Position numbers and translations under genes: made by a program. Of a DNA stretch of 23,001 nt, positions 141-19,037 are shown piece by piece. The stretch spans positions 1 through 23,001 of the forward strand of contig KE561139.1 of the NCBI GenBank assembly GCA_000442015.1, read 5' to 3'. Below the pieces are notes generated by a model, which ran no database searches, was not told the origin of the DNA, and worked only from the letters and a program-made list of their open reading frames with translations. Positions within the stretch are counted from its first letter, which is position 1. Each line of letters opens with the position of its first letter. Source of the stretch: Rozella allomycis CSF55 (taxonomy: Eukaryota > Rozellomycota).

Positions 141-3100
141 TTAATTTCTTTTCAATAATTCTAATTGAGTCAAAATCTCATGAAAACTTTTTCGTCTAGT
201 GTGATCCGCCGACCATGCATTGATAATTACCTCATTCCAAACACGATACTCGTCATCAATTTTAGGTCTTAACCCTTTTAATTAACTTCATAAATGATAC
301 CAATAAGCAAATCCCTTATGAATTCTTGAGTATTTTTCAGATTTGCCACATCCCATGCATTCTTTTTGTAAATCAGCTCGTACATTAGAATACTAAATGC
401 ATAAACATCAACAGGCTTGTTGTCTTCTTTTACAACCGTTTCATGGGACTGCAATCTTCTGATGAGCTATAATATCACAATTTCACTATTACCTCAGGAC
501 TTGCATATGCAAGGGTAAGACCGGCGGCTGTCGATGTCGACAAGCCAGACACTAGCTTGTCGTGAAGAAAGCTATCAATAACTCTTGCCAAACCGAAATC
601 TGATACGACACACTCTTCAATTATAAATCCATCGCCTGGAACGCTGTGGACATTCAACAGAATATTGTCTACTAACTATTGGTTTAATTGCTTACGAGGT
701 TTTAAATCAAAATGTATTACGCTATTAGCATGCAAATATTCCATTCCTTTACAAATGTCTATCAAGATATCAAGACATAAATTGGCGGTTAAATATTGTG
801 GTTTAGTTCTAATTAATTCGATCAAGGAAACGTTATAGTATTTTAGTATTATAGATGGTGGGCTAAATGTAAATCCAATAAATTGCGCTATATTTGAATG
901 TTTTAATGAGCTATGTGTCCCAATAGTAATCATTACCTATGCAGAGCAATTTCAGACGATAAATTGGATTTTGCTGCCTCGCTTTCTTATATTAATCAAA
1001 AATAAAATATTACCAGAAAACATTTTAATAGCCACAACGGAGATATTAGCTATGGGCTTGACTAGACGAGCCTTGTACACTTTTGCAAACCCTCCTTTGC
1101 CTATGAGATCTTTGATTTCAATATCATTTTTGATATCAATTTGCAATTGACCAGGTAAACTAATAAGAGATTTAACATCAGTCTAATATTTAACATGGTA
1201 TTGTTTTACTATCGTTGTGGAATCTAGAGCATTTGAATGTGGTCTATGATATTCAGGTATTATTAATGGCGTTGGTTTAAGGAGCCCAATTTTCGGTAAA
1301 GCTCTTTGACGACTACTCCTGCTCAATGAAATTCGACTTGGCTGAATTAACCTCGCTTTTGAAATTGATTTGAAAGATATTTTAGACTTTTTGTTTTTCC
1401 TGTGCCTCCAGTAAAAGAATATCAATGCAACTATTATAATGAAAAATAATGATGCTCCAGATGAGATTAGTATAATCGTCAATTCATTTGTGGCCGGTAA
1501 TTTTAATGGTTCATTTGAATAGATTGTTGTTGTAGGCAAAGAAGATGTCAGTAAGGAATATGGAACATTCATACTACTAGATTTACTTGTTATTAGAGGC
1601 GAAACATTCAAAATAGTTGTTAGTAGCAATGGGTCACTTGTGATACTAGATTCGCTGGTGGCGAGAGGAGAAGGAATCAACGTAGTTGTGAGTAACGATG
1701 AATCTCTAGTGATACCAGATTCACTTGCTGTGACAGAAAAAGGAATCAAAGCATCTGTCGTTGCAGTAGAAGTATATTCGGTGAATGACGATGGGAACCC
1801 CCTCGAATCTGTTGTTGTCATAAGGCTTGAAAAGCTTTGGCTGCTTTGAAAAATACCACTGCTTGAATAAGTGAAACTACTAAATGTCTTGGTTGTAGAA
1901 ATAGTCGTTAATTTGGATGTATTCAAAAGCGTGGTTGTTTGTGTTGATGTAGTTGAGACATTTATGGTACTGGTTGTGGTATAAGACCTTGAAGATGATA
2001 CACTGTTGATACTTGAAGTTAAACTTGGAATTGGACCATCACAACCACTAATCAATTTAATAACGTAATATCCAACGCGACAGCCAGACGGATAAAAGTT
2101 GGTAAATTCAATATCGTAGAGGAAGCTTTTAGCAGGCATATGGTCCAAATTAACATGAATAGATGTTGTATTTATGGCAGGCGAATTCGTAGCTCTAAAA
2201 ATCGAAGTGCTGTTTGGCTGCCAATAGCTTATAGCTGATGAACACAAAGTTGAGGATGCGGCTCTTCCTATTTTTATCTGAAACGAGCAAGAATCCATAG
2301 AGTTGTTGTCCATGATGATGATTAGTTCCGTAAAACTTTCGAATGAAAGATCGCAAGTTGATGAATGGAACTTTGTATAGAAATAATTTGAACTGTATCC
2401 AAAAAATTCGATGCCGTAACCGAGCCCTTGAAATGATCTTATTACATCCAGTTCGTCAGTCGGCGGATGTAAGAAACTTCTGTATCCACCGAGACTATTT
2501 AATGTATTATTTTCACCCTTGTCTACAATCAATTCAGATGAGCACATTAGCGGTAACATTGAATCAATCATTCGTTTGTAATNATTAGCGGCAACATTGA
2601 ATCAATCGTTCGTTTGTAGTTCGTTGCATTTAGTAGCAGAATTTCTGATATTGTTATGATACTTCTATATTGTCCAGTATATCTGAATGAAATCTGATTT
2701 AGATTGTTGATTCCAGGCGTGCAAGATAATGGTAAATTGTAATATGATTTCGACAAATCACTGACACTGATATCAACCTGGGAGTCGGCACCAAATGGCC
2801 GCCATGTCTCATCATTATTTAAATCAACTAGAATGTTCATGTACTGGCCATTGGGCAAGAAAAGATCACGATCAAATTTTACCGCCAATGTCATGTTGCT
2901 TGCACAGTCATCATTTGTGTAAGTGTACGGATAAAAAGTAATGTTGAAATACGAAGGATTTTGAGTAGAATTATAAAACGTCAAAGCCAATGGCATAACC
3001 GCGCTTGTTGAAACGGTTGAAGATTTTGTCATATTTTTTGCATAGTTGAATTCTCTCGAGAGCAAGTTTGTGGATGAGGCTTGCTGAGCATATTCGTAAA

Positions 3101-3155
3101 GAGTGCTGTATACTAATTGTATGCCTGAAATGAGCAAGTAGTGAAATTTCGCCAT
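141..3155 (-). CDS. Receptor-type protein kinase (TKL/Tyr-kinase-like), single-pass membrane protein, 7 exons
   Basis: This is one gene of about 938 residues once six introns (1183-1209, 986-1013, 911-936, 669-695, 467-492, 275-300; 26-28 nt each) and one duplicated copy around the N at 2583 are removed; the total is then an exact multiple of three. Residues 1-24 look like a signal peptide. An N-glycosylation-rich, Cys-containing ectodomain follows to about 370, then a Ser/Thr-rich stalk with imperfect repeats of about 24 residues. A membrane helix at 546-570 is followed by a basic stop-transfer (RHRKNKKSK) and a basic juxtamembrane segment. The kinase domain runs from about 655 to 938: G-loop GKGGFAKV 664-671, VAIK Lys689, alpha-C Glu704, HFDLKPHN 775-782, DFG 804-806, SPE 837-839, DVYAFSILMYEL in subdomain IX. 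The HRD Arg is replaced (HFD), so it is a non-RD kinase. The kinase exon has no ATG between the TAG at 1183-1185 and the G-loop, so it cannot start on its own. The ligand is unknown. Confidence 0.82.
2546..2620. repeat. Direct duplicate flanking an N (assembly join) in the receptor kinase ectodomain
   Basis: Copy A is 2546-2582 and copy B is 2584-2620, 37 nt each with 3 mismatches, around the N at 2583. Deleting one copy plus the N (38 nt) rejoins the two ectodomain frames exactly. This looks like an uncollapsed contig overlap, with the mismatches perhaps allelic. Confidence 0.85.
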
Positions 3156-3419: not shown

Positions 3420-6400
3420 ATGCCACTTTTGAAGCAATTTATATCACCATGCCGCAGAACCTTTAGAAAATTTGCCACGGCATCATCGCCAGATAATATA
3501 TGCAAGCACCCGAACTTTGTGTTGAAGGCAAGCCAGCGTTACAACGAGTACAAGATGACAGCGTATCTGTACGAGCACATCAAGACCAAAGCATCGTACA
3601 TGCATTTAGAAAAGAGCGACACGAACAAATTATTCGCGTAACCATTATACAATATGGTGAAATAGTGTCGGATTTAAGACCTTGCCAGCGGACAACAAGG
3701 GGATTCCGCATATTCTGGAGCATTTAACGTTGTGTGGGTCAGAAAAGTATCCAGTGCGAGATCCGTTTTTCCGGATGCTGCGTCGATCCTTGTCGAACTA
3801 TATGAATGCGTGGACGTGTAATGTTGTTGATTTTGTGTGTGATAGTTCCGTATTTTACAATGTATCCGTTTACTACTGAGAATGAGAGTGATTATAATAA
3901 TTTGATGAGGATCTATGTGGATGCTGTGTTTCGGCCGCTGCTGAAGCGGGAGGATTTTATGCAGGAGGGGTGGCGGCTGGAGCAGCGGGATTTGGGGGAT
4001 GTGGATTCTGAGGTTGAGTTTAAGGGGGTTGTGTTTAATGAGATGAAGGGTGCGTTGGTAATGAGTGATGTTGGGATTGAGTAGTCTGATTCGAATAGTG
4101 TGTTTGAGAATGAGTGGCAGAAGGCGATGTTTGAGGGAAGTAAGTTTGGGGTGAATAGTGGGGGAGATCCGAGTGAAATACTGAGATTGGGTTATGAGGA
4201 ATTGGTGAGATTTAGAAATGAGAATTATCATCCGACGAATGCGTATTTTGTTTCGTATGGGGATGTGAATGTTTTGAATGTTATGGAGTATCTTGATTCG
4301 CAAATTAAAGAGTTTGAAGAAAAGGAAAAGATTGATGAGAGTGGGATTGATGGATTTGAGATTAAGGGAAATGAAACTGTTTATATTGATTGTCCAGTAG
4401 ATCCAAGTAAGAGTTGTAGATTTGAAGTGAAATAGTTGGAGAAGAAGAGAAACAAGTGAAGATGGTTTTGAGTTTCTATACGAATCCAGTGAAAGATTTA
4501 TATGAGAGTTTTGTGATGAGACTTTTATCGTGTTTGTTATTGAATGGACCAGCATCACCCATGTATAAAAGTTTGATTGAAACAAATCTTGGAAATGAAT
4601 ATTCACCAATCAATGGATATGATTGCAACACACCGTAAGAAGTTACGTTAAAGTTGATGAAATAGAATTTCAACATTTTCATTTGGTTTGCAGGGGATTA
4701 GTGAAGGCGATGTAGAGAAAGTGAAAGAAATAATTTTTGAAACATTGGAGAAGTCAATGTATGAAGGATTTCCGATGGAAAGAATTGAAGCAGCGTTGCA
4801 TCAAATTGAACTTTCATTGAAACATAAAACATCAAAGTTTGGAATAGGAATTGCTCAATCTTTAATGATGAAATGGATGCATGGAATAAATCCTTTAGAA
4901 TCTTTAAATTTAGAACAAGTAAATTTCTTAATCTATTTTTTCAATTTAGATCTTGAATAAATTAAGAGAAGAATTAAAAGATCCAAATATGTTTAAATCT
5001 AGAATATTTAAATATTTTTTCAAAGATCCAAAATTTAAAATTATTATTTCAAAACCAAATAAAAATTATCAAAAAGATTTAGATGAAAAAGAATCTAAAA
5101 TTTTAAATGAATTAATAAAGAAAAATGATAAAAATAAAATATTGAAAGAAGCTTTAAAAGTTAAACAAAGACAAGAAGAAAATGAAGATGGTAAAGAAAT
5201 TAAAATCTTTTTTAAAAGAAAATATTTTGCCATGTTTAGAGATTAATGAAATATCAAAAAAGGGAAAAGATTATTCTGTTCTTACAAAGTCAATAAATTC
5301 AACAAAATTATTCTTGAGAGAAACAGAAACAAATGGGATAAATTATTTCAATGCTATAATCCCCTTTCAAAATCTATCAAAATCTGATTTATCTTTTATT
5401 CCAATTCTATCTTTTGTAATTCAATCATTTCTCATTCATTAAAGATGTTGAGTGATCTTGGTGTCACTACTAAATCAAAAGCTCAATTTCAACAAGATAT
5501 TGAACAACACACTGGTGGTATTTCATTCTCTCCTTTTCTATCTCCAAATCTTAATGATTCAAACAAAGCTAACCTTGGATTATCCATATCTTCCTATGCC
5601 TTGGCAAACAACACGAACAAAATGTTCAATCTAATTTCTGAAGCACTAAAATCAACAAACTTTAATGACATTGATCACATAAAAACTTTGATAAACTCTG
5701 TAACAAGTCTCATATTCATTTCATTAGAATGCTTCAAACGCAATGTCAAGTATTTCCAGCCAGGGTCATTCATACGCCATGCAATTTGCCGCCAGTAAAT
5801 TAACAAAGCCACAAGTAGAAAATATTCAAATATTGTTTAGGCTATTGATGAATTATGGACTGGTCTTTATTATGTTAGATTCTTAGATATGCTAAAATCA
5901 AAATCTATTAAAGAGATATCCGAAACTTTGCATTTTCTTTCATCCTCTTTAATAGCTTTAAAAGATATGCGAATGTTTCTAGTCACTCAAGACAAAGAAT
6001 CAGTTGAATTCAGCATCAATAACTTTGTTTCAGGATTTGGTTCCACTTCTTTTAAAGATTCCGAATCATTTGAGCATACTGCACAATCAGGATCACATTC
6101 ATTCATTCCACTTCCCTTTGGATGTTCGTTTGCCAGTCTCGCTATAAAGGCTGTTCCCTATCTGCATAAAGATGCCATGGCGCTATCTGTTTTGGCTAAA
6201 TTACTCACAAACAAATTTCTGCACAAGGAAATCCGTGAAAAGAATGGCGCGTATGGCGGTGGTGCTTCCTATTCCTCTCTAAACGGCATCTTTTCTTTCT
6301 ACTCTTACAGAGACCCAAATCCACTGAAATCAATTGAAATTTTCAAATCAACAGAAGAATTCGTTAAATCCAAACCATTTGATCCAAAGGTACGCTTTAT

Positions 6401-6700
6401 TCTAGTCATTCAAAGGATCTCCATGAAGCGAAACTGGGACTATTCTCTGCAATGGACTCGCCGGTTGATGTGCAATCTGAAGGTGTTTTGCTGTTTGAGC
6501 ATGGAATCACTGATGAGATGAGGCAGGAGAGAAGAAATAGACTTTTTGAAATTACGCTTGAAGATGTTTATAGAGTTGCTGGAAATGTTCTTGGGTCGTC
6601 GGATAGTTCGGCGGTAGTGTTGGGAAAAGATGATCAGGATTCTAAAAGGGAGTTTAGGGATTGGGAGGTGACAGAGTTTAGGGATCTCATTGATCAGTGA
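3420..6700 (+). CDS. CYM1: Mitochondrial presequence protease, M16C metallopeptidase (Cym1/PreP/PITRM1)
   Basis: This protease degrades cleaved presequences and other unstructured peptides in the mitochondrial matrix. Eleven introns of 26-31 nt (3638-3665, 3818-3845, 4058-4084, 4407-4435, 4635-4665, 4919-4949, 5191-5218, 5416-5444, 5701-5728, 5815-5840, 6390-6415) leave an exact 989-codon frame, the usual family length. The first 25 residues are rich in Arg, Lys, Ser and Phe with no acidic residue, as in a mitochondrial targeting peptide. The inverted zinc motif HILEH is at 88-92, and the third zinc ligand is Glu189 in FNEMKG. The following [14 protein letters not shown] and MYPF segments are characteristic. 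The second half keeps [14 protein letters not shown] and, near the C-terminus, EKNGAYGGG, the substrate-binding Arg/Tyr-type region of the M16 fold. Coding DNA is G-rich near 3900-4300 and very AT-rich near 4950-5250. The ATG at 3420 is chosen because it opens the targeting peptide. Confidence 0.95.
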
Positions 6701-13589: not shown

Positions 13590-14083
13590 ATGTCAACATA
13601 TAACTACATAAATAAGTTTGTAGCGCCCCGGATTGGTAATAATTATCACAGATTATCAAACCTACCACCTGGGACGCACCTTACTCTCGATCCCCTTCAA
13701 CGAGTTCGGCAATCATTGAAACCTACGCCAACCGCTTTTTTAAGAATCTGCTTCGATACTATCCACAAAGTAAAAAATATTGTTACCAAAAACGAAAAAA
13801 GAAGACTGATCTTATGGGCAGATATTTTTTATTCCCGAAATACCCTAACATGGATAGACTGTTTGGCGACACAAGTAGATTGGGAGCCAAAGCGCATAGC
13901 TTTATAAGATGATACCCCTCCCATTGATGATGAAATTTTTTTAGAAGTGAGAAGAAAATTTCAAAAAGTCATATAATATTGAAACAAGAAATTAAAAATT
14001 TAAAGTTAAATGCATTAGAGGTTCCAAAATTTAAACCATATCTGAAGCATCCAACTATTAGCAGACCTTTTGATCTACTCTAG
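13590..14083 (+). CDS. Uncertain gene or gene remnant of unknown function
   Basis: Coding-like peptide segments are visible but no single open frame joins them: IIETYANRFFKNLLRYYPQS, then KTDLMGRYFLFPKYPNMDRL, then TPPIDDEIFLEVRRKFQK, then LEVPKFKPYLKHPTISRPF. They can be linked from ATG 13590 to the TAG at 14081-14083 by three phase-compatible GT-AG introns (about 13620-13651, 34 nt near 13875-13908, and 38 nt near 13968-14005), giving 129 codons. These introns are longer than the window's 26-31 nt norm. The alternatives are frameshifted draft sequence or a decaying gene. I do not recognise the family. The 3' end runs into the ankyrin repeat array of the opposite-strand gene. Confidence 0.3.
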
Positions 14084-15572
14084 AATCTGCCAGCAACATT
14101 TTGACAACATCTGCATGACCGTTACGGGAAGCCCATCGAATAGCATAATTGTCATCCGCACTTGGATCTACTCTAGAATCTACCAGCAACATTTTGACAA
14201 TATCTGCATGACCGTTATAGGAAGCGCATCGAATAGCAAAGTTGTCATCCGCACTTGGATCTACTCTAGAATCTGCCAGCAACATTTTGACAATATCTGC
14301 ATGACCGTCAAGGGAAGCCCATCGAATGACATAATTGTCATCCGCACTTGGATCTACTCTAGAATCTGCCAGCAACATTTTGACAACATCTGCATGACCT
14401 TTACGGGAAGCCCAGCGAATAGCATAATTGTCATCCGCACTTGGATCTACTCTATAATCTGCCAGCAACATTTTGACAACATCTGCATGACCTTTACGGG
14501 AAGCCCAGCGAATAGCATAATTGTCATCCGCACTTGGATCTACTCTATAATCTGCCAGCAACATTTTGACAACATCTGCATGACCTTTACGGGAAGCCCA
14601 GCGAATAGCATAATTGTCATCCGCACTTGGATCTACTCTATAATCTGCCAGCAACATTTTGACAACATCTGCATGACCTTTACGGGAAGCCCAGCGAATA
14701 GCATAATTGTCATCCGCACTTGGATCTACTCTATAATCTGCAAGCAACATTTTGACAACATCTGCATGACCGTTATGGGAAGCCCAGCAAATAGCATAAT
14801 TGTCATCGGCTCCTGGATCTACCGTAGAGTTTGCAAGCAAAATTTTAACAATTCCTTTCCGCACGCTATGAGCATTAGAAAAATTAAAATTGCCATCAGC
14901 ATTCGAGTTTGTGTATACGGAAGAAGAAGGTTGAAAACCATTCTCAAAAAGGACAATATTTTGGATTGCATGCATAAGGTCGAATTGGCATGAAAATTGA
15001 AACGCATAGTTAGCAGCNACATGACCGTTATGGGAAGCCCCGCGAATAGCATAATTGTCATTGGCACCTGGATCTATCGTAGAGTTTGCAAGCAAAATTT
15101 TAACAATTCCTGTCCGGCCGTTATGAGCAATAGCAAAATTAAAATTGCCATCAGCCTTCGAGTTTGTGTATACGGAAGGAGAAGGTTGATAACCATTCTC
15201 AAAACTGACAATATTTTGGATGGCATGCATAAGGTCGAATTGGCATGAAAATTGAAACGCATAGTTAGCAGCTTTTTGAGGCATGTTCTTTTGTTTTAGA
15301 CAATGCAGAAAAAATACGAACCTTTCTCTTTGTTCGTTGTGCATAAGAATATTCCAGCACGAATGTATGGCTAATACTTTCCCGCACCTCTGCTTGATTA
15401 GATATTGAAGTACATAAGGGCATTTCCATGAACAACTTAATTCAGGGGTTTGATGAAGGATGAAGTCGAAGCAAACTGAGCGAAGCCATATCGAAGTTCT
15501 GGAGACTTGTTTCAAATCATCCAGAGTTAAGTGCGACAAAATAAACAGCCAAACCTCGTGTGGAAAATTCAT
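14058..15572 (-). CDS. F-box plus ankyrin-repeat protein
   Basis: The N-terminus (FPHEVWLFILSHLTLDDLKQVSR...WLRSVCFDF, residues 3-36) is an F-box, which would bind Skp1 in an SCF ubiquitin ligase. The rest is a series of 31-residue ankyrin-like units of the form GHADVVKMLLADxRVDPSADDNYAIRWASRx, suggesting a substrate-binding scaffold. The ORF is 504 codons as assembled, but an in-frame 255-bp duplication around the N at 15018 (copies 14764-15017 and 15019-15272) probably inflates it by 85 residues. The central units are identical in DNA sequence. The protein ends abruptly inside a repeat with VDQKVC, so the array looks truncated at its 3' end. No introns are seen. F-box/ankyrin proteins are also common as effectors of intracellular microbes, but nothing here shows secretion. 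Confidence 0.78.
   Translation of the reverse strand: MNFPHEVWLFILSHLTLDDLKQVSRTSIWLRSVCFDFILHQTPELSCSWKCPYVLQYLIKQRCGKVLAIHSCWNILMHNEQRERFVFFLHCLKQKNMPQKAANYAFQFSCQFDLMHAIQNIVSFENGYQPSPSVYTNSKADGNFNFAIAHNGRTGIVKILLANSTIDPGANDNYAIRGASHNGHXAANYAFQFSCQFDLMHAIQNIVLFENGFQPSSSVYTNSNADGNFNFSNAHSVRKGIVKILLANSTVDPGADDNYAICWASHNGHADVVKMLLADYRVDPSADDNYAIRWASRKGHADVVKMLLADYRVDPSADDNYAIRWASRKGHADVVKMLLADYRVDPSADDNYAIRWASRKGHADVVKMLLADYRVDPSADDNYAIRWASRKGHADVVKMLLADSRVDPSADDNYVIRWASLDGHADIVKMLLADSRVDPSADDNFAIRCASYNGHADIVKMLLVDSRVDPSADDNYAIRWASRNGHADVVKMLLADSRVDQKVC
14068..14811 (-). repeat. 93-bp tandem repeat array encoding ankyrin units
   Basis: About eight direct units recur with a period of exactly 93 bp; the marker CTTGGATCTACTCT recurs at 14161, 14254, 14347, 14440, 14533, 14626 and 14719. 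Units between about 14386 and 14760 are essentially identical, while the outer ones differ at several sites. This points to recent expansion or homogenisation of the middle. Confidence 0.9.
14764..15272. repeat. 254-bp diverged direct duplication around an N in the ankyrin gene
   Basis: Copies 14764-15017 and 15019-15272 are offset by 255 bp and differ at roughly 17-18 positions (about 7%). They flank the N at 15018 in the same way as the shorter joins elsewhere in the window. Either two diverged alleles were concatenated or it is a true paralogous duplication broken by the N. Confidence 0.75.
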
Positions 15573-15735
15573 ATGAAGTGGTCACTGGTCAGTGGCTGAA
15601 AATACAACCTCAGAAACCTCATCATATTGAGGTCCATCCTTTACTGTTTTATTTATTGAGCAAAATGCGAAAATTTTGGTTTCCGTTTATTAAAGACTAA
15701 AAACAATAAACAAATACATATACTGACCTATTTAT

Positions 15736-17831: not shown

Positions 17832-19037
17832 TTAAATGTTAATCAAAATACGAATGGCAAAAAGAGATTTTGCCAAATTGAAAACACTGTCGGCTAAATT
17901 TGGCTTGATATCTAACTTTACTTCAACAGGGAAGTGGTCACTGATTCTTGAAATGTCTGCGAGATCTAATTTAAGTTTTTCGCAAGCATTGTCAGGATGC
18001 CAAGGTTTCTTCGTGGATGTTTCAGAGGAGTATATATCACAAGGATAGTAGTATGGTTTAGCGCTATTAGGCACAACAAGTCTCATGGCACTAGTTGAGG
18101 CAATTATTCTGTCAAAAGCGCAACAGGTGGAAATACTTGTGGTTGTATCTACGGACGTTTCAATCAACCAATGAAGTCTAGTGTCATGATAAAGTAGCAC
18201 AGTAAAATTTGAATGATTTACAGTATTGTCATCGCTTCTCTTCTGTTTTACCCTTCTTTTCTTAGGCCTCTCTGAAGCTTCGTCATCTCCTGAATATCCG
18301 TGATCGTCTTCGTCATAACCAATTGGTGCATGAGCTAAATTCTTTGGTTTCCTGCGAGATCTTCTTTTGGCACGCGAACTTTCAGAATCTGTAAATACTC
18401 CTTCATCTTCAGTGCTGCTGGAATCAGATTTGGGTAAGTGCCAATGTTTCTTTCTAACGTATTGGCAATCAGCGTTGAGGTCTCCCATGATCATAATGTT
18501 AGATTCACCCCACCTTTGTAACACCTCATCATAGACATATTTTAATGAATTAATTTCAAATATAGCTGCCGCTGGTTTCGCATGCAACCCTATAAATACT
18601 ACCTTTTCATGACCAAAGCTCATCAATACACAAAATGGCGGCCTTTCAAAGTTTCTTGCCGCTATTCCATCGTATTGCCATTGATCTATAAGTACAGCCC
18701 TGTCCTTTCTATAAAAATATACGTATTGCTCTTTGGATGAACTTTTCCCGAGATGATCACTAGCAACTAATTCATATCCAGCGGAAGTCAAGTTATTCAC
18801 CATTGACAGTAATCTCGATGGGGTACTACCACTAATGTCTCTAATTTCTTGAGCCAAGAACACATCGTATCTTGTTATTATGGTGGATATTGTCGATGTC
18901 ACTAAAGAGTCATTAAGCTTTGTCACACCGAAAACATTTAAATTCATAGCACCAAAAGTGAACTCATAACCCGAAGAATGCTGTACAAATGCAAGCAGTA
19001 GCAACCCTAGCAGTAAAACCAATGTTTGAATTGACAT
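17832..19037 (-). CDS. Secreted DNase I family endonuclease with a charged NLS-like insertion
   Basis: This is an intron-free ORF of 401 residues. Residues 1-23 form a clear signal peptide (LVLLLGLLLLAFVQ core). The fold and every key residue of DNase I can be followed: QEIRD with Glu64, KEQYVYFYR with Glu103, GLHAKP with His152, MGDLNAD with Asp186/Asn188, AFDRI with Asp309 and SDHFPVEV with His368. Active Mg/Ca-dependent DNA cleavage is therefore expected. Between CQYVRKKHW and the LHWLIETSVDTT strand lies an extra segment of about 75 residues (203-278) rich in Ser, Asp and Glu and containing two strongly basic clusters, AKRRSRRKPK and RPKKRRVKQKR, like nuclear localisation or DNA-binding motifs. 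A smaller insertion (about 338-352) precedes the final His, and the C-terminus is extended by about 25 residues. DNase I is typical of animals and uncommon in fungi. It starts 158 bp from RRP9 (divergent). Confidence 0.9.
   Translation of the reverse strand: MSIQTLVLLLGLLLLAFVQHSSGYEFTFGAMNLNVFGVTKLNDSLVTSTISTIITRYDVFLAQEIRDISGSTPSRLLSMVNNLTSAGYELVASDHLGKSSSKEQYVYFYRKDRAVLIDQWQYDGIAARNFERPPFCVLMSFGHEKVVFIGLHAKPAAAIFEINSLKYVYDEVLQRWGESNIMIMGDLNADCQYVRKKHWHLPKSDSSSTEDEGVFTDSESSRAKRRSRRKPKNLAHAPIGYDEDDHGYSGDDEASERPKKRRVKQKRSDDNTVNHSNFTVLLYHDTRLHWLIETSVDTTTSISTCCAFDRIIASTSAMRLVVPNSAKPYYYPCDIYSSETSTKKPWHPDNACEKLKLDLADISRISDHFPVEVKLDIKPNLADSVFNLAKSLFAIRILINI

Follow-up and report, generated by a model that had tools for sequence, protein, structure and literature searches.

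The minus-strand interval from 3155 to 141 of the window, which is the whole 23,001-nucleotide stretch analysed (contig C162:1-23001), is in our judgement a single gene of Rozella allomycis, whose product is predicted from the sequence to be a receptor Ser/Thr kinase of type I, with one membrane pass and about 938 residues (probability roughly 0.87). The first-pass annotation had joined a membrane protein to a kinase across an apparent stop codon, leaving the strand unstated, and had guessed an early-fungal source; NCBI taxonomy places Rozella in Rozellomycota, within Fungi, as guessed. As to the species, an elongation-factor-like protein from contig C198 of the same assembly matches its Rozella allomycis CSF55 entry at NCBI with 100% identity over 464 residues. 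The layout which it proposed is borne out in silico, as a weak signal peptide, an ectodomain, one transmembrane helix and a kinase are found in one polypeptide. The product thus belongs, by prediction, to the single-pass receptor-kinase architecture class, with the signal peptide judged by hydropathy and by eye. The gene model consists of the following parts:

141..3155, minus strand: whole receptor-kinase gene (ATG 3155-3153, stop 143-141)
3090..3155, minus strand: putative signal peptide, about residues 1-22 (hydropathy and eye; best 15-residue mean 1.22, weak to moderate)
2584..3155, minus strand: coding piece 1, with the signal peptide and the first half of the ectodomain, 190 aa
2546..2620, minus strand: assembly gap with frame change (single N at 2583 between the 37-nt near-duplicates YKRTIDSMLPL / YKRMIDSMLPL)
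2044..2580, minus strand: second half of the ectodomain, which resembles the ectodomain of the C198 paralogue
1501..2043, minus strand: Ser/Thr/Pro-rich stalk, 181 aa (S, T or P = 54%)
1420..1476, minus strand: single predicted transmembrane helix IILISSGASLFFIIIVALI (Kyte-Doolittle hydropathy 2.82)
1183..1209, minus strand: intron 1, 27 nt, phase 0, GTAA...TTAG, the final three bases being the apparent stop TAG
1123..1182, minus strand: second juxtamembrane exon part, TDVKSLISLPGQLQI..., with the shared S[VL]PG motif
162..1122, minus strand: protein kinase domain of TK/TKL type, HFD = non-RD, catalytic motifs present; contains five introns
986..1013, minus strand: intron 2, 28 nt, phase 1, position matched in C198
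911..936, minus strand: intron 3, 26 nt, phase 2, position matched in C201
669..695, minus strand: intron 4, 27 nt, phase 1, position matched in C201
467..492, minus strand: intron 5, 26 nt, phase 0, position matched in C198 and C201
275..300, minus strand: intron 6, 26 nt, phase 1, position matched in C198

The apparent stop had been read as the tail of a 27-nt GTAA...TTAG interval, and this interval, GTAAAACAATACCATGTTAAATATTAG, lies exactly at 1209-1183 in phase 0, with ...ALDSTTI before it and TDVKSLISLPG... after it in the protein. Translation confirms that the membrane part and the kinase exon share one frame. As noticed before, there is no ATG in the kinase exon ahead of the glycine loop: 53 residues pass before the first in-frame Met, which lies beyond both this loop and the VAIK lysine, so that translation could not usefully begin within the exon. 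The interval also fits the intron class claimed for the window, since 124 of the 152 introns predicted in loci L020-L034 are 26-29 nt long. For Rozella, a density of 2.53 introns per kb coding sequence is quoted in PMC8476143.

The gene models were made with a purpose-written gene finder that allows short introns. Its codon scores derive from 50 long ORFs in the window and the other loci, and the codon table did include the window and the C198 receptor locus, whereas both were left out of the intron model, which was trained on L020-L034 only. With introns thus modelled from elsewhere, the finder returns exactly the same six introns for the window. Once these are removed, a single frame extends from 2580 to the stop at 143-141 and covers both the membrane helix and the kinase.

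In the counted loci, 127 of 3073 TAG triplets have a GTAA 26-29 nt upstream (4.1%) and 246 have a GTA at this distance (8.0%), both values being upper bounds because real introns are included in the counts. Among the predicted TAG stops, one of four has a GTA 24-31 nt upstream (41 stops were predicted in total). Given the chance rate of 8.0%, the TAG motif alone is weak evidence, and it is the paralogues that are decisive. Elsewhere in the window, the reading of an ATG7 gene (Pfam ATG7_N) on the minus strand meets a stop at 16879-16877 and resumes with LAETAVDLN... after a 28-nt GT...TG interval (16880-16853), which looks like a tiny intron that does not end in AG, or else like one whose acceptor base was misread.

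We searched the genome, a 9.97-Mb assembly of 213 contigs, and found two paralogues, C198 and C201, modelled with the same finder (C201 is part of its training set). The C198 product has 874 aa with a signal-like start, a predicted transmembrane helix at 421-439 and a kinase; that of C201 has 434 aa, in which a signal-like start is followed by only about 20 residues of ectodomain, a helix at 38-56 and a kinase. Both kinases are matched by Pfam. The motif S[VL]PG ahead of the glycine loop is common to the window gene, C198 and C201. All six introns recur in one or both paralogues with place and phase unchanged, introns 1, 2, 5 and 6 matched by C198 and introns 3, 4 and 5 by C201. The C198 counterpart of intron 1 is 27 nt long, in phase 0, nine residues before the shared PG, and carries an in-frame stop (GTA TGA). 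A 25-nt form of this C198 intron was considered and dropped, as the finder gives the 27-nt form, which keeps the frame open. Introns 3 and 4 are missing from C198, which has one extra intron after residue 456, and introns 1, 2 and 6 are missing from C201. The juxtamembrane intron of C201 lies about three residues further on in another phase and was therefore not counted as a match. Together with the gene finder, this intron-for-intron agreement supports the earlier proposal of one gene with its stop hidden in a tiny intron.

We define the Rozella receptor-kinase family here by a transmembrane helix joined to a kinase, the S[VL]PG motif and shared intron places, and three loci show all of these. 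The family may be larger, because our models cover 16 kinase regions and a PF07714 search of the genome lists 140 matching stretches. One kinase match, at C87:49942-50349, is 43% identical to the C201 kinase and is possibly a fourth member. Near the C201 receptor kinase, L022 7444-6227 on the minus strand encodes 405 aa that include a membrane helix at the N-terminus and a kinase-like domain, the latter divergent and recognised by motif only.

An improbable alternative, though the best placed of those considered, is that both forms are made, a kinase-less decoy receptor by retention of intron 1 and the full kinase by splicing. Both intron 1 and its C198 counterpart carry an in-frame stop before the kinase, so that a product with the intron retained would break off in the juxtamembrane part, after 465 of the 759 residues of the second coding piece. 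With an HMM of the non-Rozella kinase domains used for the tree below, the fully spliced product scores 173.5 bits, and the product with intron 1 retained, cut at its first stop, gives no match; retention of introns 2-6 one by one, cut in the same way, leaves 20.9, 28.5, 99.9, 138.5 and 163.7 bits. Against a special role of the stop, such stops are the rule: in the window and L019-L034 they are found in 49 of 50 predicted introns of length 3n, compared to 37 of 65 and 52 of 81 in the two other length classes, an excess that is at least partly built in because the finder favours stop-carrying 3n introns. Moreover, the scarcity of translatable introns in Paramecium is explained by mRNA surveillance and selection against them (PMC11334263). 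For a 27-nt intron of the Rozella allomycis genome, carrying a stop is nothing out of the ordinary, and intron 1 itself is therefore not the point of interest. If intron 1 were retained, either a kinase-less membrane protein would be made or the mRNA would be destroyed, and ordinary splicing quality control is more likely here than regulation.

That there are two genes, with a kinase-less Ser/Thr-rich membrane protein ending at the TAG at 1185-1183 and a separate kinase gene downstream, is more improbable again. The TAG does exist in the DNA, and if the donor of intron 1 is masked, the finder predicts two open genes, 2547-1183 and 1023-141. However, this lowers the score from 60.3 to 44.6, a loss of 15.6 log units, and leaves the kinase as a fragment starting behind the glycine loop, with no Met ahead of it. 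Furthermore, C198 shares the layout as well as the position and phase of this intron, and C201 too joins a transmembrane helix to a kinase, which favours the single receptor-kinase gene.

The first-pass annotation had counted exactly 938 codons after splicing. This total is reached, but only if a further 38 nt are removed at 2583, which it did not mention, namely the N together with one of the two 37-nt near-duplicates. Taken as it stands, the sequence loses its frame at 2583, leaving pieces of 190 and 759 residues, 11 of them duplicated, which gives 938. We compared the flanks of N sites with 60 bases on each side, in the window and the fetched loci, counting a site as positive if its flank similarity was above the maximum of 296 random controls. 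Near-duplicate flanks were found at 17 of the 34 N sites examined, compared to 0 of 296 random sites. Within the window this holds for six of eight N sites, the single Ns with near-identical flanking duplicates being at 2583, 7770, 8405, 12139, 20876 and 22722; others are in the fetched loci. This is a recurrent scaffolding artefact of this assembly and can shift frames. As the pattern recurs, we read the N at 2583 as such an artefact and not as biology; the frame is continuous across 2583 only if the N and one near-duplicate do come from the assembly.

The spliced second piece is matched by the Pfam families PK_Tyr_Ser-Thr (E 8.9e-34) and Pkinase (E 4.7e-33). At E <= 0.001, Pfam finds nothing besides the kinase in this piece and nothing in piece 1. 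The motifs occur in the order glycine loop, VAIK, SSEIALH, HFDLKPHN, DFGLA, YASPE and DVYAF. With the glycine loop, the VAIK Lys, the alpha-C Glu, the HxD Asp, the DFG and an APE-like motif, the domain has the motif set expected of an active kinase. Tyrosine kinases have HRDLAARN or HRDLRAAN as catalytic loop, and HFDLKPHN is a Ser/Thr form of the non-RD kind, which sets the domain apart from the TK group. When PDB sequences were searched, 1967 matched; TKL and TK kinases are mixed in the top 60, with KSR2, EphB1, Roco4, TNNI3K, BAK1, CTR1 and B-raf, and ephrin-receptor kinases are among them. NCBIfam gives only partial matches to bacterial kinases, far under their cut-offs. A decaying or inactive gene, either a pseudogene with its frame broken at 2583 or a pseudokinase with HFD in place of HRD, is the least probable of the alternatives, because the break coincides with the N and near-duplicate pattern of the other N sites, nothing else interrupts the frame between 3155 and 141 apart from the six introns, the catalytic motifs all occur in the right order, and HFD is shared by C198.

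The part of the receptor kinase outside the membrane is, as far as its sequence goes, an orphan without a matched family. The second half of the ectodomain is similar to that of C198, with alignment z values of 7.2 and 4.5 (0 of 300 shuffles reach the score in each case) and a BLASTP E of 0.001 in a single comparison; for the first half, similarity to C198 was undetected in the same shuffle test. In genome searches at E <= 10, the window's second half and the C198 ectodomain each matched only themselves. A protein search with residues 1-400 of the joined query found no homologue at E <= 0.001 among 7994 candidates scored, and Pfam at E <= 10 gave only LuxS (E 0.13) for the ectodomain halves and nothing for piece 1. 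Single-sequence structure models of the two halves are of low confidence, with a mean pLDDT of 31.4 and 45.6. Foldseek with the better model (pLDDT 45.6) gave no match at E <= 0.001, and the 50 matches listed are assorted proteins with query-normalised TM-scores of about 0.2-0.35. A tandem repeat was also considered and rejected, as the halves are unlike each other in the window as well as in C198: the half-versus-half score was reached by 80 of 300 shuffles in the window (w1-w2) and by 285 of 300 in C198 (a1-a2). There are five N-glycosylation sequons in piece 1 and seven in piece 2.

Besides the receptor kinase and the ATG7 reading, other features were seen in the window. The stretch 14058-15581 on the minus strand encodes an ankyrin-repeat protein whose tandem repeats are almost identical and whose start matches F-box weakly, below the Pfam cut-off. 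At 17832-19037, also on the minus strand, there is a DNase I-like (Exo_endo_phos) protein with a signal-like start, which is perhaps secreted. Positions 4001-5000 show a strong GC skew (0.51) across the plus-strand gene 3420-6700, which resembles an M16 peptidase, together with a long antisense ORF at 3674-4609. Scans of the window with Rfam at the gathering threshold and for tRNAs gave no match.

A tree was built with 118 kinase domains: 134 were given, of which five without a match and 11 with matches shorter than 191 residues were dropped, none of them from Rozella. The window kinase and C198 are sisters (100/97), and C201 joins them (99/94). The plant RLK rows lie within a separate clade of 58 rows (100/100), and the Rozella kinases do not nest within plant RLK/Pelle. 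The nearest rows outside the Rozella clade, the database proteins P0034 and P0065, have weak support (97/57) and no transmembrane helix by hydropathy. Since the rows come from one similarity search in which the TK, Raf and FslK families are not represented, the tree cannot place the Rozella clade among all TKLs.

Several known systems resemble the window gene in part. Plant RLK/Pelle proteins also have a signal peptide, an ectodomain, one membrane helix and a Ser/Thr-type kinase, and non-RD variants occur among plant receptor-like kinases; unlike them, the window kinase lies outside the plant RLK clade and its ectodomain has no Pfam domain. Animal and premetazoan receptor tyrosine kinases have the same layout but differ from the window's loop HFDLKPHN, which is of Ser/Thr form. 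Fungi do have one single-pass kinase, IRE1, which is like the window gene in its lumenal domain, one membrane helix and kinase. The locus C35 (L028), which we take to be the IRE1-like gene of Rozella, is a separate gene and lies elsewhere in the tree, although its branch is long and uncertainly placed. The FslK kinases are described as fungi-specific kinases related to tyrosine kinases (PMC3937382); by that description they resemble the window kinase in being fungal and near the TK/TKL border. The words 'transmembrane' and 'Rozella' are absent from the main text of PMC3937382.

The layout suggests how the receptor may work. The ectodomain, probably N-glycosylated, would be held off the membrane by an O-glycosylated stalk and would bind a ligand from the host or the surroundings. 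Binding may then cluster receptors, upon which the cytoplasmic kinase would phosphorylate Ser/Thr on itself and on partners. By the RD rule, the HRD arginine holds the activation-loop phosphate. As the window kinase is non-RD (HFD), this switch is unlikely to be needed for activation.

Among the papers listed by literature searches on Rozella kinases and on fungal receptor kinases, none deals with Rozella receptor kinases, and an earlier mention in the 2013 Rozella genome paper is possible. Among the best 120 of 205 matches to catalogued proteins of 522-1662 aa, none is identical to the window kinase and none is from Rozella. The protein database does contain Rozella proteins, and shorter annotated pieces of the window gene may exist in it. 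The first-pass annotation had called receptor kinases unusual in fungi, which agrees with a 2023 review. What is new, as predicted here, is a receptor-kinase layout with an orphan ectodomain and a kinase clade of its own, in a group that was believed to have no receptors of this kind.

Rozella is an endoparasite at the base of Fungi, with a wall-less stage. Tentatively, and with somewhat less than even odds, we suggest that a small family of true receptor Ser/Thr kinases, with orphan ectodomains, is peculiar to it, that their assembly would have been independent of that of plant RLKs and animal RTKs, that they may sense the host at the surface of the wall-less stage, and that gene splitting by tiny introns helped to hide them. 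The window gene suggests that kinase surveys of genomes with tiny introns can miss receptors. If the family is as proposed, the statement that fungi lack receptor-like kinases would be wrong at the root of the kingdom. Rozella is described as a sister lineage to Microsporidia (PMC8476143). With at least three receptor kinases in Rozella, it becomes testable whether such receptors were present in the fungal ancestor and then lost, or are new in the endoparasite.
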